Below the pieces are notes generated by a model, which did not search any database, was not told the DNA's origin, and worked only from the letters and a program-made list of their open reading frames with translations. From positions 1 to 39,735 of IMG/VR virus record IMGVR_UViG_3300034072_000840: 39,735 nucleotides of DNA. One strand, written 5' to 3'. The position numbers and the translations under genes were made by a program. Source of the DNA: a virus. Below are positions 4,757-29,449 of the stretch, one piece after another (positions within the stretch are counted from its first letter, which is position 1; every line of letters begins with the position of its first letter).

Positions 4757-5280
4757 GCCGCTTCAGGCTTCGCATTTACCGGCTTGCTGAGACCACCGAA
4801 GATCTTCTTCACAGCCGGCTTGGGATCGGCATCGAACGGAACATTGTCCTGTCCTTCAGCTGCCTGCACTTCCGGTTCCTTGACCGGATCAGCCTTCTTG
4901 CCGAAGACTGCACGCAGAGGCTTGGTTGCCGGAGCTTCTTCAGCAACAGGCTCATCTGCTACTGGTTCAGCCTCAGGCTCTGCCTTTGCCACTTCGACGA
5001 CAGGCTCCTCGACCTTGACTTCAGCCTTGGGGGCCTCTGCCTTGGTCTCGGTCTTCTCAGCCTTGGTGGTCGCCTTGACTTCCGGCTTGGTGACTTCCTC
5101 GGGCTTACCGCCCTTGGGTCCATCTTGCGGAGTGATGTCGATGACAGCCGTAAAGCCTTCGGTGCCACGGGTGGCCTTGAGATCGATATCGACCCGCATA
5201 TTTTCCCGCACTGCAATGAGTGCAAGAACGTGGTTGCGGATAGCCGTTTCGATCTCGGTCTGAGTGATGGTGATCTGCAT
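4753..5280 (-). CDS. Hypothetical protein with acidic Ala/Pro/Lys/Glu-rich tail
   Basis: 175 residues. The N-terminal 55 residues (MQITITQTEIETAIRNHVL) form a compact folded-looking segment; residues about 60-135 are a low-complexity region of repeated Lys-Ala-Glu-Pro-Val patterns; the tail again looks ordered (LRAVFGKKADP, KKIFGGLSKP). No family is recognised. The ATG lies 3 nt after the TAG of the resolvase gene, with AGGGA about 9 nt upstream. The place next to SSB and resolvase suggests a middle/replication gene, but function is unknown. Confidence 0.75.
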   Translation of the reverse strand: MQITITQTEIETAIRNHVLALIAVRENMRVDIDLKATRGTEGFTAVIDITPQDGPKGGKPEEVTKPEVKATTKAEKTETKAEAPKAEVKVEEPVVEVAKAEPEAEPVADEPVAEEAPATKPLRAVFGKKADPVKEPEVQAAEGQDNVPFDADPKPAVKKIFGGLSKPVNAKPEAA

Positions 5281-5283
5281 CTG

Positions 5284-5841
5284 CTAAATCCCTGTAAAGA
5301 GTCTCATGAGGTTCTGGAACATTGGCGTCCTTACCCCAGCATGGATTGCTCCTATGGCATCAGCCACATGTTCTGCCTTCTCGGCACTGAGCTTACCATG
5401 GTGGTATGGGAAGTTTGCCTCCGGATACCAGGACATTGCACTCTGAATCATTTGGTTCTTTGTGGCACTCTTGGTTCCTGCCAATGCGAGTTTGACCTCG
5501 ATCGGTGTCACCTCGATCAGAGGAATTCCCTCTGATCTTATTACCCCCAATATACCAACACACATGCCATAGCTAGCCATTGCACGCGCAGATTGAGATC
5601 CAACCGGCACTTCGACAAAAACTACCTTAGCTTTCCTGGCCTCTTCCAGAGCAATCTTGGACAATTGCTCCGCTTGCTCGAGGTCCTTGGAATTCTGTCT
5701 GACCTGTTTTGAAACAGTCTTGACCGGAGTGACGGTCTGTAAATGCGGTGTGTCAAGCACCCCCGCAGTCAGATCAAGAATTCCTGAGGCGATGCCCCAG
5801 TTGGACATGCTCGGATCCATTCCGACTACGGGGATACGCAT
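5284..5841 (-). CDS. RuvC-like Holliday junction resolvase
   Basis: 185 residues with an RNase H-fold pattern: VVGMDPSMSNWG at the N-terminus (first acidic residue), VVFVEVPVGSQSARAM near residue 95 (second acidic residue in VEVP), and HVADAIGAIHAG near residue 160 (third acidic residue). This spacing matches RuvC-type resolvases of phages, which cleave four-way junctions in replicating or recombining DNA. It lies between the SSB gene and a hypothetical gene in the replication operon, where N4-like phages carry a similar protein. The stop is TAG, followed after one codon by the next ATG. Confidence 0.8.
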   Translation of the reverse strand: MRIPVVGMDPSMSNWGIASGILDLTAGVLDTPHLQTVTPVKTVSKQVRQNSKDLEQAEQLSKIALEEARKAKVVFVEVPVGSQSARAMASYGMCVGILGVIRSEGIPLIEVTPIEVKLALAGTKSATKNQMIQSAMSWYPEANFPYHHGKLSAEKAEHVADAIGAIHAGVRTPMFQNLMRLFTGI

Positions 5842-5857
5842 GAGACTTTACGCTCCC

Positions 5858-6613
5858 TTAGGCCGCGTTCTTGTTGCCGAAGAGACGCTTGGTCTCGGTC
5901 TTGGCGCCAGCCTGTGGAGCTGCACCCGAACCGGGGCGGCCGGACTTGCCTGCCTGATTATCATTCTTGGCAGTCTTGTCACGGGTCTGACCCTTGTTGC
6001 GTTCGGTCCAGGCATCGATAAACACGCCGGTCTCGAGACCTTTGCGGGCTTCTGCGACAGTCAGCTTCGAGTCGAGGTCATAGACCTTCTCGATGGTGTT
6101 CTCATCACGGGTCTTGCCGGTCGGGACGTAGTTGCCGGCATCGTCCTTCTTGCTGACATCGACGGTCGACTTGACGATGGCTACACCGACTTCCTTGCCG
6201 ATGAGATCGACGAGAACATGGGCTGCCTTGGGCAGTTCCTTCTTCTCTTCGTAGTCCCACTGCTTGACCAGCTTTTCCTCGGTGGGCTGGTTCTCGAGCG
6301 ATTCCCCGGTTGCCACGAGGCAGAGGTCATCGATCGTGGTGAAGCCTGGCAGAGGGACCTTCTTGGTCTTGTCGTCCTTGTTCAGGAAGTAGTTCTCACC
6401 CTTCTTATTGGTGATGTAGATCGTCTCGCTGTAGTCAGCGCCATTGATCTTGCCCTGAACGGTCACGTTGCGAGCACCGCCTGCCGACTGGCCGGCATAT
6501 GCCATGGTGATCTTCATGGTATAAACGTCGGTATCCAGTGCCGGAGTACCGCCGCCCAGACGATCTTCCGATTCCTCGAGACCGTCGCTGTTGAGGTTTT
6601 TGAAAATGCTCAT
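5858..6613 (-). CDS. Single-stranded DNA-binding protein, N4 gp45 type
   Basis: 251 residues, MSIFKNLNSDGLEESEDRLGG at the start, a central region rich in beta-strand patterns (VYTMKITMAYAGQSAGGARN, SETIYITNKKGENYF) and a flexible Gly/Lys-rich C-terminal tail (KSGRPGSGAAPQAGAK). In N4 this protein binds ssDNA for replication and recombination and also activates late transcription by host RNA polymerase. Assignment is by position after the gp44-like ATPase gene and resemblance to N4-like SSBs, which are unrelated in sequence to bacterial SSB. The start is supported by AAAGAAAGACAAAGAGT just upstream. Confidence 0.75.
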   Translation of the reverse strand: MSIFKNLNSDGLEESEDRLGGGTPALDTDVYTMKITMAYAGQSAGGARNVTVQGKINGADYSETIYITNKKGENYFLNKDDKTKKVPLPGFTTIDDLCLVATGESLENQPTEEKLVKQWDYEEKKELPKAAHVLVDLIGKEVGVAIVKSTVDVSKKDDAGNYVPTGKTRDENTIEKVYDLDSKLTVAEARKGLETGVFIDAWTERNKGQTRDKTAKNDNQAGKSGRPGSGAAPQAGAKTETKRLFGNKNAA

Positions 6614-12676: not shown

Positions 12677-13483
12677 TCAGGCAGCCAATCCCGTCTGCTT
12701 GGTTACGTGCTCTTCGATGACATTGAGAATGTCTGCCTCTGTTGCTCCGTTGGGGAGCGTTATCTCTGTCGTCCAGTTGGGGTAGAAGAGACCCAAACTT
12801 CCCCCGAGCTTCACCTGTGGGTGGTAAATCTCAGGATGGTTTTGCCATCTGACGGCATCAACTAGATGAGTGTTGGCATAGACGATAACTTTAATGTCGT
12901 CCTGCATCAAGAAATATCCTGCGTCATGGATTTGAGCACAGGGTTTTATCGACAGTCTGTGAACACTCTTTCGGACTTTGCCCATAAACTCTGAGCCAGC
13001 ACGGGAATTGAGCAGACACCAGCTCTGTCCCAGGGCATTGCCAGCAGTCCTCCCTTCAGCTTCAGCAGCTTGTGGGGTGGCCTTGGCTCCACGAATAACC
13101 TGAGCCAGCAGAGGTGTGCGGAGTCTCAGGCCAAAAGCGATGGTGATGTATCCATCCTTGGTAGCCTGATCGAGCTTGTCCGAGACCCATTGGTCACTGA
13201 CCGCATAGAGCTCGTGATACCTTGCCTCGATTGTTTTAGCCTTCTCTTCCGAGAAGCCACAGTTCTTGACGAGTGTGGACCATGTTCCCTGATAAGTATG
13301 CTTTTCCTGTGCCCCCTCTCAATAAATGAGAGGGGGCTAGCAGGTTAGAGCAAAGGTAGGGGCTTTGCTCTCTTGTCGATCCTTAGCGTAGAGAAATTGA
13401 ACAGAGTTGATCCGGGCAACATTGTGCTCGGAGACCGAGACCTCCGATACAGATTCGATTGGTTCAGTAATTCTTAGCACCAT
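12677..13483 (-). CDS. DNA polymerase (family A), C-terminal piece, interrupted by a 48-nt gap with stops
   Basis: Starts at ATG 13483 (MVLRITEPIESVSE), inside the 3' end of the HNH gene. It reads 47 codons to FALT within RQESKAPTFALT, the O-helix/motif B of family A polymerases, then meets TGC TAG. The chain resumes 48 nt later as YQGTWSTLVKNCGF, the normal continuation of motif B, and runs in the same frame to TAA at 12677. With the gap removed the product is 252 residues and contains motif B (Arg36, Lys40) and motif C QIHDAGYF (His170, Asp171). The downstream part has no usable start codon before Met at 12985, well past motif B. Expression therefore needs a recoding event, most simply ribosomal bypass of 13342-13295. 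It would pair with the N-terminal piece, which holds motif A and the exonuclease. Confidence 0.85.
13295..13342 (-). other. Candidate translational bypass element (48-nt coding gap)
   Basis: Minus-strand order: Thr codon ACC (13345-13343), TGC, TAG stop, a 10-bp hairpin, in-frame TGA in the hairpin loop/arm, AGGA (13308-13305), 7 nt, then Thr codon ACT (13297-13295) and TAT where the polymerase resumes. A tRNA-Thr with GGU anticodon reads both ACC and ACU, so peptidyl-tRNA could leave ACC and land on ACU. The T4 gene 60 bypass has the same parts: matched take-off and landing codons, adjacent UAG, hairpin, upstream SD-like signal, about 46 codons into the gene. The function is inferred; the interruption and its parts are seen. 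Confidence 0.8.
13311..13337 (-). repeat. Hairpin inside the coding gap
   Basis: Perfect 10-bp inverted repeat gccccctctc / gagagggggc with a 7-nt loop. The stem starts at the last base of the UAG stop in the mRNA. No U-tract follows, so it is not a normal terminator. Confidence 0.9.
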
Positions 13484-14051
13484 TTATGCGCGCTCTCTTA
13501 ATTCGTTGATCCATAAGTGAGTTATCTAGCTCGTTTTCCAGCCCAGTTTCCCTAGCTAACTTACGAAGCTTCACAGACAGAAATGGAACCTTGTAAGGCA
13601 CCCGGAGGCAAACATCTGCGTATGATTCACCGGAGATGACATCATTTAGGCAGTCCAAAAACTCCTGCCTCGTGAGCTTGTTTGTGTATGTTCTAAGGCC
13701 TGTTCTTATGGCGTGAAGTTTATTGCCTAAACTGTCTACCCATTCCAAATTGCCTACGTCGTTATTTTGCCGGTTGCCATCCTTATGGTTTACTTCCGGC
13801 AATTGCTTAGGATTGGGAATATAAGCTTGGGCGACTAAGCGATGAACGTAGAAAGATGTGCCCTTATTTTCTTTCCAGAGGTTAACCTGGAGGTATCGCG
13901 TATCTTTATGTGGGTAGGGAGTAAGCAACTTGCCCCACTTAGGGATGGCTACCTTGTCGGCCCCAATCACTACACGATCTAATGATCTCACCTGACCGCA
14001 TTGGCTAACTTCGTAGGAACCCTCATAACCCAGAATTGGAGAGAAGTGCAT
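13464..14051 (-). CDS. HNH homing endonuclease (NUMOD4-HNH) splitting the DNA polymerase gene
   Basis: 195 residues. N-terminal NUMOD4: FSPILGYEGSYEVSQCGQVR. HNH core: YVHRLVAQAYIPNPKQLPEV followed by NHKDGNRQNNDVGNLEWVD. A DNA-binding tail follows (TRQEFLDCLNDVISGESYAD). The ATG overlaps the last 29 bases of the polymerase N-terminal piece, with GGAG 9 nt upstream; the stop lies 17 nt inside the C-terminal piece. No room remains on either side for a group I intron core, so this is an intron-less insertion that splits a gene, like mobA in T4 and mobE in Aeromonas phage Aeh1. Confidence 0.92.
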   Translation of the reverse strand: MHFSPILGYEGSYEVSQCGQVRSLDRVVIGADKVAIPKWGKLLTPYPHKDTRYLQVNLWKENKGTSFYVHRLVAQAYIPNPKQLPEVNHKDGNRQNNDVGNLEWVDSLGNKLHAIRTGLRTYTNKLTRQEFLDCLNDVISGESYADVCLRVPYKVPFLSVKLRKLARETGLENELDNSLMDQRIKRARINGAKNY

Positions 14052-16191
14052 ACAACTCTGCTCCTGTCACTTCATTGCCTAGATAATTTATAACTTCATT
14101 GGCATGAAAATAGACATTCTTGCCGCCAACTTTCGCAATGTAACAAGGAACATTGTCTTGAGCAATCTCAATGTCAGGCATTGAGTCGCTAAAGTATGAT
14201 TGAGCACGAAGGCAGTGGCCGTCGAACCCGTCAGTATAGACGCGCAATTTAGCAGGGTCTTTGGTGGTCAGAGCTGAGATGCGATCCTCAAGGGAGTCAA
14301 AATCCAGTCCTGCAAAGATCCAGCCATCGGGTGCCTCGAAGCAGCTTTTGATGAGCTTGCCCAGGCTGAGCTTGTTGCCTTTCATGTACGGCGCCAGAAT
14401 GGCCCCATAGAGCTTCATGAGATACTCGGAGATGAGCATCATCACATTGGCCGGCAGGTTCTGGAGATTAGGCCCAGAGGAGCTTAGACGGCCGCTCTTG
14501 GTTCCTCCAAGATTGAAATTGCCAAAGAGGTAATGCCAGCCATCCCGACCTTGTTGAGCACTCTTCAGGGATGGGATAAAGTCGGTGATGATCTTGTTGA
14601 CCGCCTTGAAGTCGATCAGTGCTCCAAGGAATTCCAGAGTATCTGCGTCCTTGGTGTGATTCCTCAGATTCTTCAGCGTGTCGCCGTCTGTCGACGGCTG
14701 CCCCGCATCAGTCAGACCCAGGACAGGGAGTTCCAGTACCTCGAACAGGAGTTCTTGGAGCTGGGGGTTGGAGTTCGGATTGAACTCCACGGCCTGGGTC
14801 TCGTCATCCTCGAATGCGATCTGCTTCTTTTTCAAAGCCTCGTTACGCTTGGCTACGTGCTTATGACGCAGCAGATGGTTGTAGTGCTGGATGACCTTGG
14901 AATGCCCCAAGGTCTGAAGCGCTGAGCCCTCGATGTCATTGAGGATCTGTTCGACCTTCAGGACCTGGTTCATGTTCACCGGCATGCCAGTGAGCTGCAT
15001 CTGGATAATATCCAGCATTGCAGGCTGGAACAGGTCCCGGTAAACCAGCAACTGCTGGTCTGCTACGAGAGTGTCCCAGTGCTTTTCATAAACATGCCAT
15101 GTGGAAAGGCTGTCGACGAGATTGTATTTGAGCAGCTCAGGTTGAGGGATCCGGCGGATATCCTTGATTTCATCCTGAGCATAATTGCCCGCAAAGTCCT
15201 GAGCCTGATCTTTCAGGCTCAGCTTATTGCCAGCACATGAGTTGGTTGCGAGGTAGGTGATGAGCTTGGTGCAATCCCAACCACCACTATCGCCCAACAT
15301 GATATCCATGCCGTAGAGCAGACCTTCCTGATCCAGGAGATGCTCCATGAAGAGCTGATAGATCAGGACGTAAACGTCATAGCCGATGTTGTGCCATTTG
15401 AACTCTACGCCGAGCTCACGGGCCACGATGAAGAATTCCTTCAACATTGCCCGACGGTAAGCATGAGGCACCTGAATGCCGTGCTGGCCCAGCTCATTCT
15501 TCTGGTTCGGATCAGCGGGATCGATCGGCAAATAATCTACCGGAAAAGCAATGCCTTCATGCTTGGACCAGGCAAACGAAATAGTGCCGATGCCGGCATC
15601 ATAGTGCTTGAGGCTGAATGCCTCGATATCCGCGGTCAGTGGCTTGCCCTGTTCCAACAGCTTACGAAGCCACTGTTCGATGCCTTTGTCTGTGGTGGGG
15701 TAGGCGGCGAACTTGATAATGTTCTGGCCAGGTACCTTGTAACCACCGGCAATGTGATCGATCAGGGCATTCATTCCCGTGGCGATCTTGGCTGTCACTG
15801 CTTCGGGATCATAGAATACCGCGGCATAGTTGGGCACATAGACAACCTTGAAGTCGCCCAGAGCACAGTCCACGACGTAGCCGAGGTTGGCTTCCACTTT
15901 GGGAAGCTTGGTTAGGACCTTGAAATAGTCAGCGTCTGCAACCAGCAGGTATTTGGTGCCCAGATCCGTCAGGGTTGGTTCGAGCTCTTCAGCAAACCAT
16001 GCCTTGATCTCTCCGGCCGACGGCTTCTTTTTACCTTCGGACTTGAAGGTCTCCACCACGAGAAGGTCATTCTCGTTGAATGGGTATGGATCGGTGTAGT
16101 GCTTGCGAATGTCGTCCTTGCGAATCTTGGGAACCAGTAGGACCACAGGATAGTGGGTGAGTTCGGGATCTGCGAACGACAGGTAACGCAT
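14023..16191 (-). CDS. DNA polymerase (family A), N-terminal piece with 3'-5' exonuclease and motif A
   Basis: 722 residues, N4 gp39 type. Exonuclease motifs: TADIEAF (Asp188, Glu190), HNIGYD near 275, and YNLVDSLSTWHVYEK near 385. Polymerase start: GTKSGRLSSSGPNLQNLP near 565 and motif A FAGLDFDSLEDR (Asp630). The protein stops about 60 residues later, in VTGAELYALLSNSGL, before motif B, because the HNH gene interrupts it. Motifs B and C are on the separate piece at 12677-13483, so the catalytic centre must be assembled from two chains. ATG 16191 overlaps the preceding TAA. Confidence 0.9.
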   Translation of the reverse strand: MRYLSFADPELTHYPVVLLVPKIRKDDIRKHYTDPYPFNENDLLVVETFKSEGKKKPSAGEIKAWFAEELEPTLTDLGTKYLLVADADYFKVLTKLPKVEANLGYVVDCALGDFKVVYVPNYAAVFYDPEAVTAKIATGMNALIDHIAGGYKVPGQNIIKFAAYPTTDKGIEQWLRKLLEQGKPLTADIEAFSLKHYDAGIGTISFAWSKHEGIAFPVDYLPIDPADPNQKNELGQHGIQVPHAYRRAMLKEFFIVARELGVEFKWHNIGYDVYVLIYQLFMEHLLDQEGLLYGMDIMLGDSGGWDCTKLITYLATNSCAGNKLSLKDQAQDFAGNYAQDEIKDIRRIPQPELLKYNLVDSLSTWHVYEKHWDTLVADQQLLVYRDLFQPAMLDIIQMQLTGMPVNMNQVLKVEQILNDIEGSALQTLGHSKVIQHYNHLLRHKHVAKRNEALKKKQIAFEDDETQAVEFNPNSNPQLQELLFEVLELPVLGLTDAGQPSTDGDTLKNLRNHTKDADTLEFLGALIDFKAVNKIITDFIPSLKSAQQGRDGWHYLFGNFNLGGTKSGRLSSSGPNLQNLPANVMMLISEYLMKLYGAILAPYMKGNKLSLGKLIKSCFEAPDGWIFAGLDFDSLEDRISALTTKDPAKLRVYTDGFDGHCLRAQSYFSDSMPDIEIAQDNVPCYIAKVGGKNVYFHANEVINYLGNEVTGAELYALLSNSGL

Positions 16192-22039: not shown

Positions 22040-24835
22040 ATGGGCCACTCTCGCACACTCAATCGACCCGTGACAGGTGACGGTGGCCTGTTTTCATATG
22101 GCTTTGCAGGCGCCCGTGGCAGAGTCGGAGGTGGTACTCCTGCGCCGACCCCGACGCCTACACCTTCTACAGCTGACTTCTATGTAGCAGACAGCGGAAG
22201 TGGTGATGGCTTGAGCGCTGCCACTCCTGGCAATTTCTCTACTGTCTGGGCTGCTGCTTCGGACGGTAAGACGATCAAGCTGGTAGGCGACACTACCGTT
22301 CCTTCGTCGCACGTCTGGGACAAATCAGTTACGCTATTTGCGGACAAGGGTTCTGCTGACGCCAATCCTCTTGGCGATGGTGCTCCCCTGGCAAATTGTC
22401 GCTTCACTCGACCCATGAAGCTGAAGTTCTCACCGCCTCTTGCAGCCGGTCCGATAACGGATCCTAATGCTTGCATTTCTGGTGTTGCTGCCGGCAAAAC
22501 GCTCACACTCAAGGACGGCATCAAATGTGTATTTGAGTACTGGCCGAGTGCAGGTCAAACCTGGGCACAGTATAACCTTATCCTGATCAGCGGTGCTCCG
22601 ACTGCTAAGCCTCTCATTACAGGGCTGAGCTACACCTCCGGTATTGTTATCGATGGGGCAGAAGTCTTCCACGGTTACGGGCCGACCTTCTTGCCTTACG
22701 ACCCGACGGTGAAGCTGCCAGAGTTCGACTCGCCCGCCAAGTTCCGGATCGACCTTGCCACCGGCCAGACCATTGCCGACGCTGCTGGGTCGTACACTGG
22801 TTGGGGCGATCCAGTTACCACCAACTATAACACTCCGTTCTATGGTCCTTTGGTTCTTGGTGGACAGTGGGCACTGGTGGATATCAAGAATGGATATTTC
22901 CACGACTTCCGCGAGTTCTCGAAGCTCAACATCTCGACCACGGGTATGGTGCATATTCGGGATAACTGGTTCGAACGCAGCATCGGTGATTTTGTTCGGA
23001 CGCAGATTGGCTCTGGATCCGGCCAATTCACAGGCATCTTCAAGTTCGAACGGAATATCGTTCTCGACGTGATCGGTAATGCTCGTGATGCAGGCAATCC
23101 GCACTCGGATGCTACCCAGCTATATGCAATGACCGCTGTGGCCGGGAACGATGTCAACAACCCATTTAAGATCATTCGTCCAGAAGCTAATAACAATTTC
23201 TACGGCATTACCCGTAAGGGTAGTCGGGCGCAGCTTCAGACGCATTTCTGGCAAGCTTCAGACAGCCACCAGAACACGGACAAGGCGGTTGTTGATCAGG
23301 GGATCGTTCGCAACAATGTGGCGATCGGTCTCGGCTACAAGCTGTTTTACGCCGATGCTTCGCGTGACATGTATATCCGCAACAATATCGGTGTGTTGCC
23401 TACCTGGTGGGCACCGCCAGATGGGGCGAACATCTGCGATATCCGTGTGGACAGGACCTACAACGGCTCTTCTGGCGGAATACCGTACACGGTCAGCTAT
23501 TCAGACAGCGAAGCCCTGGTTGCAAATACCATTGCTGAAGGGCTCACTGGTAACGCCACGCTTCGAGTTGAGAACAACCTGACCACAGGTTTGCAGGGAT
23601 CGAGCGTCTCTCACGCAACGATCTTCGCTGATCCCTCGGATCCTGGTTCGACAATCCTGTCCCCGCATGCGCTCTTCGAAAAATATAAGCCATTGGCTGC
23701 TCATGCTACCAAGGGACCACAGTTCTCTTCATTGCGAGCACTGATTGCTCACAATGGGGATTTCACCGGAGAGCGTCCACACATTGGGCCTCTGGATCAG
23801 ATTGGTGTAGCCGCAAACACCCTGACCACTTCCAATATGTTTGTGATCCATGGGGGTGACGTAGGGGATACGTTGAGCCTGATCTGTCCGGTTGGTCTGG
23901 AATGGAGAACACTCGAGCCAGTTGACCGGACTACAGTCATCACCGATTGGAACAGTGCTAACGCCAGTGTGCCCGTCGGCAAGCTCATGCAGTTCCGCAT
24001 GACCAGTGCAGCATCAGGTAGCGCCATCACGAAGACTGTTACATTGGGTGACAGCACTTTTGATTGGCGCCTGGATTCGGTTACGGCTTACGCCTATCCG
24101 CAAATCCTGATGGATCCAGCCACGCCTGATACTTTCGGGCCGGCATCTTCTCAGACACTTTCAGCAAGTGCCGGTACTACTGGTACGTTGGCCCTCATGC
24201 GGTTCAATGTGAATGAGAAGCCAACAGCGAATATTACCTTGTTTGGTTCGAGTGCAGGCACTCCCAAGGTGCTTGTCCAGATCCTCAGCACAGGACAAAT
24301 TCGCGTATCTCTGGCAGCTGCCACCGGTTCAGCTTTTGCCCGAATTGAGAGCAATTTTGCTGGAGCCAACGGTGTGTGTGATGGTCTGGATCACGACATT
24401 CTCATATCTTGGGATACGTCGCAGACTGATCAGGCGCTTGGCCGTAGCCTCTACATTGATGGTGTCGATTCTAACAGCTCTGGGGCCACCTGGACTGCTG
24501 GCACTGTCGGATACGCTACAGCCATCAACACATATCGTATCGGTAACGTCGGCGCCGGTGGCAGAGACGTCAAGCTCGGTGCATTCATTCTTCGCTGCAC
24601 GGAGCGTGTGGACATCACAGATGGTGCGAAGCGTGCTCTGTTTGCCGCGGATTATCTGCGTGAAGGCGGTGTTGGTCCATTCTCTTCACGTCCTGCATTC
24701 CTACTCACCGGTACTGCTGCCCAAACCAATGGTTGGAATGACGCAACCAATGGCATGAACTGGGGCACTGGCTTCAAGTTTAAGCCTGTGTCGCCATCTG
24801 CCGCTGTCGATGTAACAGGCTCAGCCTGGAGTTAA
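22040..24835 (+). CDS. Tail spike / receptor-binding protein with beta-helix and lectin-like domain
   Basis: 931 residues. Short head (GDGGLFSYGFAGARGRVGGG), a Pro-Thr linker (PAPTPTPTPS, about 34-43), then DFYVADSGSGDGLSAATPGN, the usual entry of a right-handed beta-helix, which runs to about 560 with repeated FYGI.., VRNNVA, YIRNNI-type rungs. A middle sandwich-like region follows, and residues about 715-880 (TGTLALMRFNVNEKP, DHDILISWDTS, RSLYIDGVDSN, YRIGNVGAGGRD) resemble a concanavalin A-like/LamG fold. Pectate-lyase-type spikes bind and may cleave surface polysaccharide; catalytic residues are not identified. Confidence 0.8.
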   Translation: MGHSRTLNRPVTGDGGLFSYGFAGARGRVGGGTPAPTPTPTPSTADFYVADSGSGDGLSAATPGNFSTVWAAASDGKTIKLVGDTTVPSSHVWDKSVTLFADKGSADANPLGDGAPLANCRFTRPMKLKFSPPLAAGPITDPNACISGVAAGKTLTLKDGIKCVFEYWPSAGQTWAQYNLILISGAPTAKPLITGLSYTSGIVIDGAEVFHGYGPTFLPYDPTVKLPEFDSPAKFRIDLATGQTIADAAGSYTGWGDPVTTNYNTPFYGPLVLGGQWALVDIKNGYFHDFREFSKLNISTTGMVHIRDNWFERSIGDFVRTQIGSGSGQFTGIFKFERNIVLDVIGNARDAGNPHSDATQLYAMTAVAGNDVNNPFKIIRPEANNNFYGITRKGSRAQLQTHFWQASDSHQNTDKAVVDQGIVRNNVAIGLGYKLFYADASRDMYIRNNIGVLPTWWAPPDGANICDIRVDRTYNGSSGGIPYTVSYSDSEALVANTIAEGLTGNATLRVENNLTTGLQGSSVSHATIFADPSDPGSTILSPHALFEKYKPLAAHATKGPQFSSLRALIAHNGDFTGERPHIGPLDQIGVAANTLTTSNMFVIHGGDVGDTLSLICPVGLEWRTLEPVDRTTVITDWNSANASVPVGKLMQFRMTSAASGSAITKTVTLGDSTFDWRLDSVTAYAYPQILMDPATPDTFGPASSQTLSASAGTTGTLALMRFNVNEKPTANITLFGSSAGTPKVLVQILSTGQIRVSLAAATGSAFARIESNFAGANGVCDGLDHDILISWDTSQTDQALGRSLYIDGVDSNSSGATWTAGTVGYATAINTYRIGNVGAGGRDVKLGAFILRCTERVDITDGAKRALFAADYLREGGVGPFSSRPAFLLTGTAAQTNGWNDATNGMNWGTGFKFKPVSPSAAVDVTGSAWS

Positions 24836-28342: not shown

Positions 28343-29449
28343 TCAAGCCTTCCTCAGTTTGATCTTGGTCTTGGCCTCAGCTCTAGCAATGCCTGCGAGC
28401 TGGGCTTCATGGACTTTGTTGGCGATCTCTTCTGCATGGGTGTAGGTACGCTTCATCAGATTGACGTCAGCCCACCCACCAAAGGCAGCAGCAGCCTTCT
28501 CGTCGATAGAGTGCCTGACGTTCAGTTCCTGACCGAAGCCATGTCTGCCAGCAGCATGAAATGGGATGAATTCGATCTTGGCTTTCTCGATAGCCTTGTT
28601 CCAAGCCTTGCGAGGAGAAGATCTTTCGGCATAGCCGAATAGGCGCCGGTTACGATCGGTATGTTCCCAGCCTCTGGGATAGAGTTCAGGTGGCAGCTCT
28701 CTAAGTTCGGCCGCCAGCCATTCAGGGATATCGAGCCAGCGATCTCCCATTCCCTTGGCTCCAGGAATGCACAGCCTTGATCCGACAGAATCAAAATGGC
28801 TGGGGTGCATTTCCATAGCTTGAGAAATTCGAGCACCGGTAGCGAACATGGTCAGAGCCAGAGCTCTCACTCTTGGTTCGGCATGCTCGCAGAATTGGAG
28901 GATCCATTCCCATGAGCCAGGAGGATAGTGAGTACGGCCAGTTGAACCTCGTCTCTTGTCCTGCCTGGTTCGCTCCTGACGATCATAGCCCTTGATTTTA
29001 ATGGGGGCACATTTGCCCAGATCATGGGCATTGTTGATGACAGATCGGACAGGAGTCAGAACCTGACGGGTCCATGTGACGGTACCAGCATCAGGGTAGA
29101 TTTCTCGAGCGAGCTCTCTCACCATTTTGGGGGTGATCTCGATTAGGGGCTTTTCACCCCATTCTTCCAGTATCGGTATAAGATAGCCGGCGGTCTTGGC
29201 ATTGGCCTCGTACAGCAGACAGGCTTCGGCAAAGGTGAATGCCTTTTCCTCTTCCTTGTCTGCTGCCTCGGGGCCCAGCAGGAAACGTCGGACTATCCTT
29301 GCTTCTTCTTGCCTGCACCACTCCCACGCACCTTGCTCTGATAGAGCTCCAGTGCTTTTCTGGTAGTAGTCTGAGATGGGCCGGCCTTCGTGCGTGACTC
29401 GACCTTTCGCCCACCATTTGGTGCCTCTGAGGTACGGTTCGAGCGGCAC
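28343..29449 (-). CDS. int: Tyrosine recombinase / phage integrase
   Basis: 368 residues. N-terminal SAM-like core-binding part about 70-150 (FTFAEACLLYEANAKTAGYL). Catalytic residues visible: TGARIS (Arg207), GAKGMGDRW (Lys232), FHAAGRHG (His298, Arg302), GGW (Trp326) and nucleophile Tyr336 in RTYTH. It lies about 0.8 kb from the tRNA-Val-derived attP core, as expected for site-specific integration into that tRNA gene. N4-like phages are usually described as lytic, so an apparently intact integrase is notable. Confidence 0.9.
   Translation of the reverse strand: MPLEPYLRGTKWWAKGRVTHEGRPISDYYQKSTGALSEQGAWEWCRQEEARIVRRFLLGPEAADKEEEKAFTFAEACLLYEANAKTAGYLIPILEEWGEKPLIEITPKMVRELAREIYPDAGTVTWTRQVLTPVRSVINNAHDLGKCAPIKIKGYDRQERTRQDKRRGSTGRTHYPPGSWEWILQFCEHAEPRVRALALTMFATGARISQAMEMHPSHFDSVGSRLCIPGAKGMGDRWLDIPEWLAAELRELPPELYPRGWEHTDRNRRLFGYAERSSPRKAWNKAIEKAKIEFIPFHAAGRHGFGQELNVRHSIDEKAAAAFGGWADVNLMKRTYTHAEEIANKVHEAQLAGIARAEAKTKIKLRKA

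Follow-up and report, generated by a model that had tools for sequence, protein, structure and literature searches.

The split polymerase gene and its 48-nucleotide insert

The DNA analysed here, called the window, is the whole stretch of 39,735 nucleotides (nt) at positions 1 to 39,735 of IMG/VR virus record IMGVR_UViG_3300034072_000840. It was assigned to a Schitoviridae (N4-like) phage, given that its polymerase matches N4-like polymerases and that N4-type RNA polymerases are encoded. The family-A DNA polymerase gene on the minus strand, which is the only known DNA polymerase gene of this phage, is divided by an I-HmuI-type HNH homing endonuclease gene, and its downstream half is interrupted by 48 nt at motif B, in the O-helix. 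An earlier note on this DNA had proposed that the ribosome bypasses these 48 nt; the HNH gene (14051-13464) and the upstream split of the polymerase, both absent from that note, are the key context. The features of the locus are listed below.

14023..16191, minus: N-terminal half (N-half) of the polymerase, 722 amino acids, up to MPDI plus a foreign tail (Pfam DNA_pol_A, E 1.1e-24; alignment with intact N4-like polymerases)
14023..14169, minus: tail of the N-half, 48 amino acids, not in intact polymerases (EIAQDNVPCYIAKVGG...LSNSGL, stop codon included)
13464..14051, minus: free-standing HNH homing endonuclease gene, 195 amino acids, NUMOD4 and HNH_3, overlapping both polymerase halves (Pfam; I-HmuI 1u3e, E 4.7e-11)
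13343..13483, minus: start of the C-terminal half (C-half), 47 codons from ATG 13483, ending KAPTFALT
13295..13342, minus: 48-nt insert, predicted bypass element (from sequence; absent in the relative L006)
13306..13344, minus: predicted lower take-off stem, CCUG 13344-13341 with CAGG 13309-13306, including two bases of the take-off codon
13339-13337, minus: stop codon TAG, one codon after take-off (ACC TGC TAG)
13311..13337, minus: hairpin GCCCCCTCTC-ATTTATT-GAGAGGGGGC, 10 base pairs (11 in the folded model)
13321-13319, minus: in-frame TGA
13305..13308, minus: AGGA, Shine-Dalgarno-like, 7 nt before the landing codon (from sequence)
13297-13295, minus: putative landing codon ACT
12677..13294, minus: remainder of the polymerase downstream of the gap (YQGTW...), 205 codons plus stop (99% amino acid identity to L006)

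All parts of the element described in the earlier note were confirmed to be present. From ATG 13483, exactly 47 codons (MVLRITEPIESVSEVSVSEHNVARINSVQFLYAKDRQESKAPTFALT) lead to ACC (13345-13343), the putative take-off codon, and KAPTFALT is then parted from YQGTW by 13342-13295, which starts with TGC TAG; the frame resumes as TAT CAG GGA ACA TGG and stays open for 205 codons. When uninterrupted polymerases were aligned, KAPTFALTYQGT was normally one continuous stretch in the relatives. The fold of the element (−37.4 kcal/mol, z −5.4, 0 of 200 shuffles) was far beyond chance, and the pattern of motif B followed by 6 nt and CCCCC was matched once in the window versus 0 expected. Since no exact copy of the hairpin was found elsewhere in IMG/VR, it is not a widely repeated mobile hairpin.

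A close relative, L006 (94% nucleotide identity), has an intact polymerase gene with neither the HNH gene nor the insert. Homology between the window and L006 by blastn stops near 14192 and resumes exactly at ACTTATCAGGG (13297), so that it is broken at both ends of the HNH-containing segment, the pattern expected from transfer. Because of these two break points, the 48 nt are apparently the 3' end of an imported segment in which the HNH gene and diverged polymerase sequence also lie. Beyond the gap, the 205 codons differ from those of L006 by 22 synonymous and 3 nonsynonymous changes. About 100 coding nt ahead of motif B, the polymerase gene is split by the HNH gene, whose product carries NUMOD4 and HNH_3 domains and has I-HmuI (1u3e) as its sole PDB match.

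Interruptions of motif B in related loci

Polymerase and HNH queries run against IMG/VR and phage records yielded 109 distinct polymerase loci readable at motif B. Hairpin inserts at the same codon boundary were found in three other lineages, namely L216 (45 nt), L217/L218 (47 nt) and L223 (40 nt). As in the window, Thr codons stand at both ends of these inserts and 6 nt lie between the take-off codon and CCCCC; the take-off and landing codons of L217 are identical (ACU/ACU), whereas those of the window, ACC and ACU, both encode Thr without being identical. L217 and L218, contigs from two metagenomes, have 1 difference in 5 kilobases. In the window, L216 and L217 a lower stem is predicted that takes in the end of the take-off codon; its sequence differs among the three (CCUG/CAGG, GCUCU/AGAGC and CUCUC/GAGAG, respectively), and shuffling of the spacers gave p values of 0.04, 0.01 and 0.08 for them and 0.30 for L223. 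Eight lineages have other interruptions, which are inserts of 5, 6 or 9 nt with stops or one extra nucleotide after UUU, and one phage, nACB1, has an intron.

L055, L215, L220: 5 nt with TAG or TAA after a Thr codon
L224: 9 nt, CUC...CUU, with TAA
L023: 6 nt with TAG after KAP
L035, L054, L222: +1 nt directly after UUU
nACB1: group I intron in motif B

In each interrupted locus recoding would restore the wild-type residues of motif B. The hairpin cases are more secure than the single +1 cases and the short hops, above all those of L023, L055 and L215, which would land on a codon not synonymous with that of take-off.

The interruptions are tied to the endonuclease. Of the 17 loci that bear HNH, 13 have an interrupted motif B, versus 0 of the 81 that are free of it, L006 among them (Fisher 4e-13); HNH-free loci were counted only with at least 800 nt upstream. 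Every one of the 13 interrupted loci has an HNH gene within its polymerase. When only the MPDI split site is considered, the interruption was found in 11/11 HNH-bearing versus 0/5 HNH-free loci (p 2e-4). The HNH-free counts include related sequences, and these Fisher values are guides rather than exact probabilities. L086, in which motif B is lost altogether, was left out of the counts; at 843-1877 of this contig the HNH frame continues straight into the C-terminal region of the polymerase, which is either a real deletion or an assembly fault. Nine IMG/VR loci, each of them within this polymerase gene, were matched by a subfamily-specific profile of the HNH C-terminus.

The pattern of motif B, six nucleotides and CCCCC matched, among viral contigs, four contigs of the three known lineages and L353, the last being a chance match in an unrelated gene. 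A gapped pattern for inserts of 1-31 nt gave no match, which is weak evidence since it requires TATCAGGG, which is absent from the known short-insert cases at that boundary. A scan of genome contigs with the HNH alignment returned no match like that of the window (most were at about 50% identity or below, with a few short pieces higher), and 60 phage records sampled across the 475 with a polymerase match all had it in one contiguous piece. In the HNH phylogeny, with a mostly unresolved main clade, L222 and L223 form the sole firm grouping, and these sister endonucleases accompany different types of interruption; the hairpin elements may have one origin or several.

The presumed endonuclease target and the bypass reading

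In nACB1, an HNH protein related to that of the window (57% identity in the alignment, 65% within the matched part) is encoded inside an RF00028 group I intron between KAPTFA and LTYMGTW (E 1.1e-8). The annotation of nACB1 (L166 3767-4617, OQ032511) lists 'DNA polymerase' and HNH genes apart, but these are the exons and the reading frame of one gene interrupted by a group I intron. HNH enzymes encoded by introns in the polymerase genes of phages make their cut no more than a few base pairs from the intron site, and I-PfoP3I requires positions −3 to +11 around it (PMC3428280). The insert of the window lies about 5 nt downstream of the nACB1 intron site, within this −3 to +11 range. Since the intron HNH of nACB1 sits at motif B and such enzymes cut near their intron site, the target of the window's HNH endonuclease is most likely the conserved motif-B DNA (KAPTFALTYQGT).

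We consider it probable that the 48 nt are a translational bypass element similar to that of T4 gene 60, carried along with the free-standing HNH gene and destroying its homing site. The HNH gene splits the polymerase gene upstream of its own presumed motif-B target, and the 48 nt, by interrupting this target, would protect the carrier from self-cleavage. A ribosome translating the C-half would release ACC 13345-13343 with peptidyl-tRNA-Thr as the take-off hairpin forms; the peptidyl-tRNA would re-pair at ACU 13297-13295, and translation would go on with UAU. The product would be the exact wild-type O-helix, after which the two halves of the polymerase would assemble.

Among other explanations, the one that survives best, though we regard it as unlikely, is that the polymerase is broken, the inserts being scars from repair of endonuclease cutting and the contigs coming from dead genes. 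The clustering of interruptions at the presumed cut site and the loss of motif B in L086 would fit such an origin. However, the inserts are of few kinds, each of them decodable (Thr-flanked hairpins, 5-9 nt with stops, or +1 always directly after UUU), random small deletions were not seen, the C-terminal frames are open and conserved, and the agreement of L217 with L218 across two metagenomes also speaks against decay. The interrupted contigs checked had a single polymerase, in two halves, and a second one was not found in them.

Double stop readthrough at TAG and TGA, which would add 16 residues within the O-helix, is very improbable, as the earlier note had already judged it to be less likely. 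The inserts of the window and of L216 are multiples of 3 and keep the frame; on the other hand, two different stops would have to be read and the insertion would land amid a catalytic helix that hardly varies otherwise. In L217/L218 and L223, insert lengths of 47 and 40 nt, which are not divisible by 3, leave readthrough out of frame, and the 5-nt inserts cannot be read in frame either. Similarly slight is the chance of a polymerase in three pieces, in which translation would end at TAG and begin anew past the hairpin, the products then assembling. Two overlapping pieces of the gene exist already and AGGA lies just ahead of the resume point, but the resumed frame has no ATG, GTG or TTG ahead of YQGTW, and the break would part adjacent residues of one catalytic helix. 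Removal of the 48 nt from the mRNA, as an intron or by excision of the hairpin and religation, is the least credible of all in spite of the real group I intron 5 nt away in nACB1, as 5-48 nt are too short for a ribozyme and RF00028 was not matched in the window even at permissive thresholds; a group I intron was accordingly rejected there, no RF00028 catalytic core being found.

With readthrough unable to explain the 47-, 40- and 5-nt inserts, no ribozyme for splicing and no second polymerase in the contigs checked, bypass from ACC to ACU remains for the window, and the uninterrupted gene of L006 together with the hairpin inserts of the three other lineages supports the bypass that the earlier note had put forward. 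The link with the HNH gene, the intron in nACB1, the stable hairpin and the few nonsynonymous differences from L006 also speak for it. Several points weigh against it. Motif B is intact in four HNH-bearing loci, namely L071, L081 and two E. coli phages, PD205 and SP5M; their HNH is of a different type and their motif is FLLTYGG, and in at least PD205 and SP5M the split lies elsewhere. The low number of nonsynonymous differences from L006 may predate the import. The insert of the window is a multiple of 3, so that its frame alone is compatible with readthrough, and its stop lies one codon past take-off. The lower stem of the window is only weakly beyond chance, KKYK was not found in its 47 codons, where another nascent-peptide signal may yet be present, and all recoding-type members are metagenomic contigs.

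Phage T4 has the HNH gene mobA between its genes 39 and 60; ribosomes bypass 50 nt inserted after codon 46 of gene 60, and this insert may guard against the endonuclease (PMC5009743, PMC3014915). The analogy with gene 60, drawn in the earlier note, is closer than that note knew through this HNH link, but it does not extend to the stop codon, which in T4 directly follows take-off. In both systems a gene essential for replication is divided by that of an HNH homing endonuclease (PMC5009743, PMC3014915, PMC2988022), the downstream half carries an insert with stops (48 nt after codon 47 in the window), a Shine-Dalgarno-like site precedes the landing codon, and a role in protection from the endonuclease is presumed for the insert. 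The take-off hairpin of T4 takes in part of the take-off codon, and the lower stem predicted for the window resembles it. They differ in the gene and phage family (topoisomerase in T4, DNA polymerase of the Schitoviridae here), in the codons (GGA/GGA in T4, Thr ACC/ACU here) and in the nascent-peptide signal KKYK, which stands 25-30 residues before the P site in T4, none being evident in the window; moreover, several lineages and several putative decoding types are found here at one site.

The intron HNH enzymes I-HmuI, I-HmuII, I-BasI and I-PfoP3I (PMC3428280) share the endonuclease type and, presumably, the polymerase gene as target, and nACB1 keeps the intron form at motif B; in the window, by contrast, the HNH gene is free-standing and upstream of its presumed target, which has a short non-intron insert. 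Collaborative homing, reported for F-CphI at an intron insertion site in cyanophage psbA (PMC6083498), likewise has a free-standing endonuclease whose presumed target is the intron site of related phages, whereas the target in the window has a short insert and no intron. The byps of Magnusiomyces capitatus mitochondria (PMC5009743) are also short inserts skipped in translation, as predicted for the window, with take-off and landing codons that are not always identical, but they occupy 81 sites in one relaxed mitochondrial system, versus one HNH-tied site per phage here.

More broadly, it seems fairly likely that HNH-linked recoding shields form a class, in which one polymerase target is disabled by any disruption that the ribosome can decode or by an intron; hairpin bypass of 40-48 nt, hops of 5-9 nt over stops, +1 frameshifts at UUU-N and introns would all belong to it. 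If so, bypass would arise repeatedly from an intragenomic arms race and would not be an oddity of T4. Long translational bypass in phages rests on a single proven case, T4 gene 60, and a 2020 review knew it only from T4 (PMC7576135); a published description of the present polymerase case was not found in the literature searched, which left most subscription journals and all preprints uncovered. The best reading is a T4-type bypass in a new gene and a new phage family. Set beside that one proven case, a hairpin-type element tied to HNH occurs in one DNA polymerase gene of at least four lineages, along with eight further lineages with shorter putative recoding inserts at or near the same site, also HNH-tied. 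These lineages would offer a natural panel for the requirements of ribosome jumping, and they support protection of a homing target as a reason for the evolution of bypass. A phage polymerase gene with stops or frameshifts is not necessarily dead.

The N-half tail and other observations

Tails similar to that of the window's N-half occur in L055, L086, L023, L035, L052 and L058, and related ones in L054 and L071 at another split site. Tails of about 40 amino acids (CYIAKVGG...TG.ELY) were found to be related at two different split sites (hhalign probability 95%, from few sequences), and they are also present in split polymerase genes without HNH; for these two reasons, the tail may be a portable module that aids assembly of the polymerase halves. 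A trans-splicing split intein was set aside, there being no Cys, Ser or Thr after the head of the C-half.

N4-like phages are usually regarded as strictly lytic. The window has a tyrosine integrase gene at 28343-29449 (PF00589, E 6.1e-11), and a 931-amino-acid open reading frame at 22040-24835 has no match in PHROGs or Pfam. In split polymerases without HNH, a GC-rich hairpin lies between the halves (L052 around 5820-5870, L056 around 380-415, L063 around 1455-1500) and precedes T-rich DNA, resembling a terminator or attenuator. A Tad2-like (Thoeris anti-defence 2) gene stands between the polymerase halves in L064 (in 4965-6060) and L223 (2331-3080), with PF11195 matched at E 8.6e-22 and 1.3e-24, respectively.
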